Positions 160 to 12,881 of a stretch of DNA of 13,248 bases are shown one piece after another. A program made the translations under genes and the position numbers. Origin of the DNA: Candidatus Altimarinota bacterium. GTDB lineage: Bacteria > Patescibacteriota > Gracilibacteria > GCA-2401425 > JAJOLG01. The stretch covers positions 1 through 13,248 of the forward strand of contig JAJOLG010000038.1 of assembly GCA_021129445.1 (NCBI GenBank). Reading direction: 5' to 3'. The notes beneath the pieces are model-generated. The model saw only the letters and a program-made list of their open reading frames with translations, had not been told where the DNA came from and searched no databases. Position 1 is the first letter of the stretch; each line of letters starts with the position of its first letter.

Positions 160-2790
160 ATGAACATTAGAAAAATTGCAAAAGAAATTTGAATTACTAC
201 TCAAACTCTAAAAAAAGAAATCCCAACTTTGAATTTGGGATTAACTTGAACAGAAACAGAAGTGCCGGAACATTTAGCTTCTGCAATTATTCGTATTGTT
301 TGACCAAAACATATTGAAGAAAAAATCAAAAGATTGGAAAAAGAATGAGCATCTGCTCAGGAAATTGAAAATGTGAAAAATTGAGATTTTTATAGATGAT
401 GAGGTGAAGAAGTTGAAAACAAAGTTGAGGTAAAAAAAGAAGTAAAGAAAAAAATTTTAGAAGATGAAAATTCTGTAAATAAAGCTCCAAAAGTTGAAAA
501 AATTAAATCAATTTTTGATATTTCTGAGGAAATTGATGAAAAAATTTCTGTAAAAGAAGACGAAAGAGAAAAACAAAGAAAAATTGAAGAAGAAAAAGAA
601 GCTGAAAGAAAAAAACTTGCTGAGCAAGCAAAAAAAGAAAGAGCTGAAAATAGAAAGAAAAAATTTTGAAAAAAATCAAATCAACCGATAAATTTGGATA
701 GTTTACCAACTGAGATTTGAAGTTGAAAAATAAAATTTTCACCAAAAACAAAAAAATGAAAATGAGTTTCAATTACAAGAAAAATTAAAATTGATGAAGA
801 AGATTTAAAAATCATTAAAAAAAATAAGGCTGAAAAAAAGAAAAAGGAAAAATTTAAAGAATTGTCGCAAGAAGAAATTGATGCAATGCCAGAAGACGAG
901 CAATTGCTTTATTTTGCTGAAATGGAAGAATTTAAAAGAGCTGAAAAAGAAAATTTTAAAAATCTTCAAAAAAAGAAGTCAAAAGTTATAAAAACTTATG
1001 ACAATCAAGAACAAATCAAGAAAAAAGAGTGAGTGATTGAAATTTCTGCGATAATCACAGTAAAAGAATTTTCTGAAAAAGTTTGAATTCCTGTTCCAAA
1101 AATTATTTGAGTTTTAATAAAAAACTGAATAATGGCGACAATAAATCATAAACTTGATTTTGACACTGCATCTCTAATTGCACTTGAACTTGATGTTCAA
1201 GTGAAAAAGAAAATTTCAGAAGCAAGTGCCGAAGAGCTTCAATGATGAGATTTATCACAATTAATTCAAGACGAACCAGAAAATTTACAAGAAAGACCAC
1301 CAGTTGTTGTAGTTATGGGGCATGTTGATCATTGAAAAACTTCAATTTTGGATTTTTACAGAAATGCAAATGTTGTGGATAAAGAGTCTTGATGAATTAC
1401 TCAGCATATTTGAGCATATCAAATCGTAAAAAATTGAAGAAAAATCACATTTCTTGACACTCCTTGACATGCTGCATTTACGGAAATGAGAGCAAGATGA
1501 GCGAAAGTGACAGATATTGCAATTTTGGTAGTTGCTGCCGATGATTGAGTAAAACCACAAACCATTGAGGCATTTAATCATGCAAAAGATGCATGAGTTT
1601 CAATAATTATTGCGATGAATAAAATGGACAAAGAAGCCGCAAATGTTGATAAAGTTAAATGAGAATTAGCTGAAATTTGAGCAATGCCAGAAGATTGGGG
1701 TTGAGATATTCCAGTTATCCCAGTTTCTGCAAAAAAATGAACTTGAATGGATGATTTACTTGAAACTATTCTTTTAACTTCTGATGTAAATGAACCAAAA
1801 GCAAATCCTAACAGAACAGCAATTTGAACAATTATTGAATCCAACTTAGATAAAGCACTTTGACCAATCGCAACTGTTTTGGTAAATACTTGAACTTTAA
1901 ATGTAAAAGATGTTTTTATCGCCTGATCTACAATGTGAAAGGTAAAATCAATTACAGACACAAACAGAAAAAGACATAAAAAATTAGAACCATCTGGGGT
2001 TTCAGTGCTTGCTTGATTTGAAGAAGTGCCATCAGTTTGAGATATTTTACAAGTTGTGAAAAATGAAAAAATTGCGAGACAAAGAGTTGAAGAAATAAAA
2101 TTACTTCAACAAGAAAATTTAAATCAATGATTCTGAATCGAAGAAATTCAAAATCAAATTAAAATGTGAAAAATAAACCTTTTAAAAGTTGTTTTAAAAG
2201 CTGATTCACAATGATCACTTGAAGCATTAAAATGATCAATTGAAAAAATTAAAAATGACGAAGTTTGAGTAAAAATCATCCATGCTTGAATCTGATCAAT
2301 TTCAGAAGCCGATGTTTCAATGGCCGCTGCATCTTGATGAATGATTTTCTGATTTCATGTCTGAATCCCAGTTCAAGCCAGAACTGCTGCCGAAAAAAGC
2401 AAAATTGAAATCAGGGAATTCAAAATTATCTACGAACTTCTTGATGAAATCAAATGACTTTTAACTTGAATGCTTGAAATTGAAGAGGTTGAAAAAGAAG
2501 TTTGAACAATGACAATAAAACAAATTTTCTACACAAAAAAGAAAATGATGATCGTTTGAGGTTCTGTTGATACTTGATCAGTTTACAAAGAATGAAAAAT
2601 TAAATTGATGAGAGAGTGAGAAATCGTTTGAGAATCTACAATTTCAAATTTACAATCATGAGTAAATGAAGTTGATGAAATGAATGCTTGAAATGATTGT
2701 TGAATTCAATTAAATCCAGCGCTTGATATTAAAGAAGGTGATAAAATTGTGGTTTCTGTTATTGAAAAGATTACCAAGACTTTGGATTAG
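160..2790 (+). CDS. infB: Translation initiation factor IF-2 (UGA read as Gly)
   Basis: IF-2 is the GTPase that brings initiator fMet-tRNA to the small subunit and promotes subunit joining. Read with UGA as Gly, this is 876 residues, close to the E. coli length of 890. Residues 1-300 form a short N-terminal module and a long, highly charged Lys/Glu region. An IF2_N-like domain follows near 300-350. The G domain has G1 GHVDHGKT (387-394, second Gly is TGA), G2 GGITQH, G3 DTPGH (433-437), G4 NKMD (487-490) and G5 SAKKG. Domains II to IV run to the end, which is a TAG stop. The start is the first ATG, giving M-N-I-R-K-I-A-K-E-I as in other IF-2 N termini. No Shine-Dalgarno is visible. The 3' end meets the 3' end of serS 19 bp away. 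The standard code would shred it, so an ordinary caller will miss it. Confidence 0.97.
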
Positions 2791-2809
2791 TTTTGGTTTA
2801 GATTTATCT

Positions 2810-10950: not shown

Positions 10951-10964
10951 CAAAATTTTTAAAA

Positions 10965-12881
10965 TTATTTTTTCTCTTTATCTTTCGAATCAACAACTTC
11001 TGCATCAACAACTTCTGCCTCTCAATCTTTTTTATCATCAGTTTTTTCTTCTCATCATTTATTTTTTTCAGCAGCGGCATAAAGATTTTGTCAAACTTCT
11101 TCCATTTTCTTTTGAAGTTTTTCGGCAGCTTTTTTAATATCCTCAGGAGTAGAGTCCGCTTTTTCAACAACAGATTTTGCTTCTTTAATTGCATCTTCTA
11201 ATGTGGTTTTATCAGCAGGTGCAGCTTTTTCTCATGCATCAGAAATTAATTTTTCAGCTTGGAAAATTGCTCAATCAAGTTGATTTATTGCTTCAACGGC
11301 TTCTTTTTTCTTTTTGTCTTCTTCTGCATGAATTTCAGCATCTTTTCTCATTTTTTCAACTTCTTCATCTGACATTCAAGAAGATCATTTAATTGTAATA
11401 TGTTGTTTTTTTCAAGTTCATTTATCGTGAGCAGTTACTTTTAAAATTCAGTTTGCATCAAGATCAAAAGTCACTTCAATTTGTGGAACTCATCTTGGAG
11501 CTGGTGGAATTCAGTCAAGAATGAATTTTCAAAGTTGTTTATTGTCAGCAGCCATTTCCCTTTCTCATTGACAAACATTTACTTCAACGGCTGGTTGATT
11601 ATCAGCAGCAGTTGAGAAAACTTGTGATTTTGAAGTTGGAATTGTTGTATTTCTTTCGATAATTTTAGTTGCAATTCATCACATTGTTTCGATAGAAAGT
11701 GAAAGTGGAGTCACATCTAAAAGTAAAATGTCAGAAACTGCTTCATCTCAAGCTAAAACTCATCATTGGATTCAAGCTCAAAGTGCAACAACTTCATCAG
11801 GGTTTACTCATGCATTTGCAGTTTTTCAGAAGAAATTTTCAACTGCCTTTTTAACAGCAGGCATTCTTGTCATTCATCAAACTAAAATAACTTCATCAAT
11901 ATCAGATTTTGATAATTTTGCATCTTTAAGTGCTTTTTCAACTGGTTTCATTGATTTTGCAATTAAATCAGCAACCAAAGATTCTAATTTTGCTCTTGTA
12001 AAATTAACATTTAAATGTTTTGGTCAAGATGCATCAGCAGTCAAGAAAGGCAGGTTGATATCTGTTGATTCAGCAGATGAAAGTTCAATTTTTGCTTTTT
12101 CAGCAGCTTCTTTAATTCTTTGCATTGCCATTACATCTCATGAAACATCCATTCAAGATTGAGATTTAAATTCTTCAAGAATATATTTGATAATGTGTTC
12201 ATCAAAATTATCTCATCATAAATGAGTATCTCAATTTGTAGATAAAACTTCAAAAACTCAATCTCATAATTCTAAAATTGAAATATCAAATGTTCATCAT
12301 CAAAGATCGTAAACAGCAATTTTTTGATCTTTTCCTTTTTTATCAATTCAATAAGCAAGTGCCGCAGCAGTTGGTTCATTAACAATTCTTTCAACTTCAA
12401 GTCATGCAATTTTTCAAGCATCTTTTGTTGCTTGTCTTTGAGCATCATCAAAATACGCAGGAACAGTAATTACAGCTTTTGTAACTTTTTGTCCAAGATA
12501 TTTTTCAGCATCAGCTTTTAATTTTTGTAAAACCATTGCAGAAATTTCCGCAGGTCTATGGTCTTTTCAAGACATTTTAATCATTGCAGCATCATTTTCT
12601 CAAGAAGTAATTTCAAAAGGAACAAGTTTTTCTTCTTCTTTAACTTCAGATTTTTTGTGACCAATAAATCTTTTTGCAGAAAAAATTGTATTTTTTGGAT
12701 TTGTCACTGCTTGTCTTTTTGCAGGAATTCAAACCAATCTTTCTCATTTTTCAGTTTCGGCAACAACTGAAGGAGTTGTTCTTTGTCATTCAGCATTTGA
12801 AATAATCACCGCTTCTCATCATTCCATTACAGATACACAAGAATTTGTTGTACCTAAATCAATTCAGATAATTTTTGACAT
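10965..12881 (-). CDS. dnaK: Chaperone protein DnaK (Hsp70) (UGA read as Gly)
   Basis: DnaK is the ATP-driven Hsp70 that binds exposed hydrophobic peptides and works with DnaJ and GrpE. The frame is 638 residues, the same as E. coli DnaK. The ATPase domain has [11 protein letters not shown] (6-16), [38 protein letters not shown] and GGMTRMPAV. The interdomain linker is [13 protein letters not shown]. The peptide-binding domain follows ([25 protein letters not shown]), then a helical lid and a Lys/Glu/Asp-rich tail. The ATPase domain appears to keep the insertion typical of Gram-negative DnaKs. No Shine-Dalgarno lies before the ATG. grpE, dnaJ and hrcA are not adjacent in this window. It is controlled by CIRCE operators at its promoter and ends at a strong terminator. 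Confidence 0.98.

Follow-up and report, generated by a model that had tools for sequence, protein, structure and literature searches.

UGA appears to have been reassigned to glycine independently in a lineage of Gracilibacteria outside the known recoded clade

The data presented here strongly support a code in which the genome containing the window (the whole stretch of DNA analysed, 13,248 nucleotides, corresponding to contig C19 of the assembly) reads UGA as glycine throughout, with UGG remaining the codon for tryptophan. Very probably, the lineage acquired this code on its own, after its split from the order-mate G001, in which UGA is a stop codon. This rare code change has apparently arisen two or more times; with a second origin it is a repeatable event and no longer a singular one. 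The recoded source genome and the non-recoded G001 also form a comparison pair for codon capture versus ambiguous decoding, and the translation table for the class cannot be set from taxonomy alone.

The established code 25 is that of Absconditabacteria (SR1) and Gracilibacteria (BD1-5), class JAEDAM01 (Campbell 2013 and Rinke 2013, as cited in PMC8629427 and PMC13092985). UGA is reported as a glycine codon solely in Absconditabacteria/Gracilibacteria (JAEDAM01), both by the screen published in eLife in 2021 (PMC8629427) and by the NAR survey of 2026, which covered 42,109 genomes (PMC13092985). UGA is a stop codon in all c__Gracilibacteria MAGs of the tree in PMC11393006, and a single origin of the glycine assignment is stated in PMC13293708. 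No report of a second origin was found in the literature searched, which mostly excluded subscription papers and preprints.

UGA as a glycine codon in the window and across the genome

The source assembly (673 kb in 77 contigs, 94.8% complete) is the single genome representing its family. Its window carries a complete 16S rRNA gene of full model length (5079..6549, minus strand) and eight protein genes, seven of which require UGA to be read as glycine, as an earlier note on this DNA had proposed. These seven genes each contain 8 to 62 in-frame UGA codons and would be lost under the standard code; no gene of the window ends in UGA (seven TAA and one TAG). The gene for translation initiation factor IF-2 (160..2790, plus strand; 876 aa, 62 in-frame UGA, stop TAG) encodes the second glycine of GHVDHGKT by UGA and the first by GGG. 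The DnaK gene (10965..12881, minus strand; 638 aa) uses UGA for 48 of its 52 glycine codons, among them three consecutive ones in DLGGGTFD, and in the seryl-tRNA synthetase gene (SerRS; 2810..4072, minus strand; 420 aa, 21 UGA) the codon is present in GTSEI and motif 2. Both glycines of LPGVGVK are UGA in the endonuclease III (Nth) family gene (4141..4773, minus strand; 210 aa, 8 UGA), the product of which scores above the Pfam cut-off and under the NCBIfam nth cut-off. The note's counts for this gene (8 of 10 glycines) and for an AGOG-type N-glycosylase/DNA lyase gene (PF09171; 8276..8962, plus strand; 228 aa, 8 UGA, 8 of 9 glycines) were exact. In the gene for the YchF ATPase/GTPase (7082..8170, minus strand; 362 aa, 17 UGA), two UGA codons rather than the three claimed were counted in the scored P-loop stretch GLPNVGKST. 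The seventh gene encodes a TrmB-like tRNA (guanine-N7)-methyltransferase (10107..10760, minus strand; 217 aa, 8 UGA, one CGG). Under the standard code, just two open reading frames of at least 120 aa are left in the window and contig C4 together.

To assign a meaning to UGA, nine proteins of the source genome (IF-2, DnaK and seven ribosomal proteins of the S10 operon) were aligned with standard-code relatives. The UGA columns matched glycine: 125 of the 195 scorable UGA codons fell on columns with at least 80% glycine, against an expectation of 11.4 (hypergeometric p ~1e-136). There were 144 such columns, with UGA in 125 and GGN in 12, and only two UGA codons occupied columns conserved for a residue other than glycine. 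The log-likelihood for UGA was +353 for glycine and −236 for alanine, the next residue. A looser BLAST test over 92 genes gave 69% glycine for 1,295 UGA columns, similar to the values for GGN codons (55–73%). Codon statistics were compiled from ∼322 kb of stretches on 20 contigs (90,206 codons of long frames). UGA occurred 5,614 times, on all 20 contigs, and made up 85% of glycine codons (79–91% per contig, no outlier). The code-25 frames on these contigs, in which stops are TAA or TAG by definition, were long and densely coding. Since the UGA share is uniform over the 20 contigs, we rejected a chimeric bin; two contigs also yielded the same tree placement.

These results bear directly on two other readings of the in-frame UGA codons, both of which we regard as highly improbable. 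The codon might specify another amino acid, such as tryptophan (code 4), or be subject to ambiguous suppression; UGA to tryptophan is the commoner bacterial reassignment (PMC8629427), and the genome has two tRNAs with anticodon CCA. However, none of the six conserved tryptophan columns in the nine proteins carries UGA, four of them carry UGG, which itself scores as tryptophan, and, as the meaning of UGA, glycine has a margin of more than 580 log units over every alternative residue. That the codons reflect an assembly artefact or frameshifted pseudogenes could be suspected of a metagenome-assembled genome in 77 contigs with gaps, but the genes of the window stop at UAA or UAG while UGA recurs 5,614 times in long frames on 20 contigs, and matches conserved glycine columns in nine proteins. 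This codon and column evidence refutes the artefact reading in practice.

Phylogenetic placement and origin of the code

We searched 40 genomes of the class for release factors and found prfA with internal UGA codons, together with no RF2, in families f12 and f15. These two families were taken as the known recoded clade, which we assume to correspond to Absconditabacteria/Gracilibacteria (JAEDAM01). In the relatives G016, G021, G034 and G039, the prfA model gave RF2-level matches only and no RF1 over the cut-off. The order-mate G001 possesses both release factors, RF1 and RF2, which show the PST and SPF motifs and have no internal UGA, and 22 of its 167 long open reading frames end in UGA. It also supplied the nearest relative of the window's IF-2 (49% identity over the full length), a copy that is free of UGA.

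Trees were computed with UGA columns masked from two independent protein sets, the seven ribosomal proteins of contig C4, and IF-2 and DnaK of the window. The source genome did not group with the UGA-glycine families of its class in either tree; it nested with UGA-stop genomes. The ribosomal-protein tree united it with G001 at 100/99 and placed the pair within the standard-code group at 99/98; the corresponding values in the IF-2 and DnaK tree were 100/100 and 97/95. A nine-protein tree and an SR4-recoded tree gave the same placement. AU tests rejected a clade of the source genome and the known UGA-glycine genomes (p 0.0014 and 0.0021), also after SR4 amino-acid recoding (p 0.014). A clade that additionally included G001 was rejected as well (p 0.024, 0.024 and 0.00096), with marginal rejection only under SR4 (p 0.053). 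Both trees contain long branches and differing compositions, including those of the source genome and G033. Because the source genome and G001 lie within the standard-code group and a single UGA-glycine clade is rejected, we interpret the code as an independent reassignment. The earlier note had described it as the code established for Gracilibacteria and Absconditabacteria; the genome-wide glycine meaning of UGA holds, whereas common descent with the known recoded clade is not supported.

A single origin would have to mean either that the source genome belongs to the known UGA-glycine clade and the trees are misled, or that the reassignment took place in a shared ancestor and G001 reverted to using UGA as a stop. 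In keeping with such a scenario, the reassignment is the same, it occurs in the same class and at similarly low GC, composition differs in the source genome and G033, and the clade including G001 is just marginally rejected under SR4. We nevertheless consider it unlikely: attraction by long branches and AT-rich composition would be expected to bring the source genome closer to the recoded clade, whereas its position away from that clade has full support in both protein sets and the AU tests reject the grouping, and a reversion would require the removal of thousands of UGA sense codons as well as the regain of RF2. The independent origin is therefore the reading that we retain.

The code of the source genome and that of the known clade (SR1, BD1-5) are alike in that UGA specifies glycine, UGG tryptophan, and UAA and UAG termination, with no RF2 found, and in that both belong to AT-rich, reduced genomes of the same broad class. 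The source genome differs in its position apart from both recoded families tested, in the share of UGA among the glycine codons of the nine proteins (92% compared with 10–76% in six known recoded genomes) and in that tRNA-Gly(UCA) was not seen in its assembly. A further UGA reassignment in the same phylum, to tryptophan in the Patescibacteriota family JAKLIH01 (PMC13092985), resembles the present one in being separate and found late, but it concerns another amino acid and another class.

Release factors, tRNAs and a possible route

Neither RF2 nor RF1, the factor required at UAA and UAG, was found in the 673 kb assembly; the same search recovers RF1 genes with up to 17 UGA codons in relatives. 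An Rfam tRNA search of the whole genome returned 26 tRNAs, including one tRNA-Gly (UCC) and none with anticodon UCA. Matches to a pattern of UCA anticodon and T-arm numbered five, equal to the reversed control, and relaxed tRNA scans for UCA anticodons produced AT-rich noise only. Also missing from this assembly, which is 94.8% complete and contains scaffold gaps, are the tRNAs for Met, Glu, Leu(UAA), Arg(UCU), Ser(GCU) and Thr(UGU). Of the genomic signature suggested in the earlier note, the lack of RF2 was thus observed and the tRNA-Gly(UCA) was not; as RF1, tRNA-Met and tRNA-Glu are equally missing, the absence of RF2 and tRNA-Gly(UCA) proves little.

The second tRNA with anticodon CCA (G000:C8:1944-2019, that is L005:1589-1664) displays C1-G72, A73 and G37, unlike tRNA-Trp, and no convincing homologue was found in 39 relatives. 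Decoding of UGA by this odd tRNA was considered and dropped, as nothing supports it. According to PMC13059738, the tRNAs of phage RSA-ATP1 include Met(CAT), Arg(TCT), Leu(TAA) and Gly(TCA). All four are among those missing from the source genome, an overlap that is probably coincidental.

GC content is ∼25% on contig C4 of the source genome and 34% in G001. AT mutation pressure may have made UGA rarer as a stop codon, after which RF2 would have been lost and a hypothetical tRNA-Gly would have gained the anticodon UCA. GGA codons would subsequently have drifted to UGA, each through one G-to-T change, up to the present share of ∼85% of glycine positions. This step also reduces GC, which would account for the replacement of most GGN codons by UGA. 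We infer this order of events as the likely one.

CGG codons and other features of the genome

Absconditabacteria have also reassigned CGA and CGG to tryptophan (PMC8629427). CGG is rare in the source genome (44 in 90,206 codons), and arginine is nearly absent from the CGG columns of relatives, compared with ∼70% arginine at CGT and CGC columns. As in Absconditabacteria, CGG is found on conserved or frequent tryptophan columns. In leucyl-tRNA synthetase (LeuRS; L283:11337-13832) it falls on the Trp of RQRYWG, in SerRS its only occurrence (codon 142) aligns with Trp or Val of solved homologues, and in an M17 peptidase (L295:10625-12037) three of the four chains listed have Trp at the column, two of them being the same bovine-type sequence, and the fourth has Ala. 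Unlike in Absconditabacteria, CGA appears to remain an arginine codon (two columns). Against a tryptophan meaning, CGG occupies an Arg column in DNA polymerase III alpha and a Tyr or Arg column in Der. The tRNA(CCG) combines A20, an arginine element that likewise departs from the Absconditabacteria pattern, with the Trp-like A1:U72 and G73. Provisionally, we regard it as likely that CGG specifies tryptophan in this genome. For the combined proposal, that, independently of the known recoded clade, a bacterial lineage outside it came to use principally UGA for glycine and also CGG for tryptophan while CGA still specifies arginine, we see the arguments as evenly balanced. If true, the two changes would repeat two reassignments of Absconditabacteria.

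Two further genes of the window merit description. The AGOG family is known mainly from archaea; its member here resides in a bacterial genome, with an Nth-like gene nearby. Comparison of the remaining open reading frame (9127..9684, plus strand; 185 aa, 0 UGA) with Pfam, NCBIfam, PHROGs (best E 0.046), phage records and IMG/VR gave no match. All four of its glycines are encoded by GGN, compared with 85% UGA genome-wide (chance ∼5e-4), and the gene was possibly acquired from a standard-code donor.
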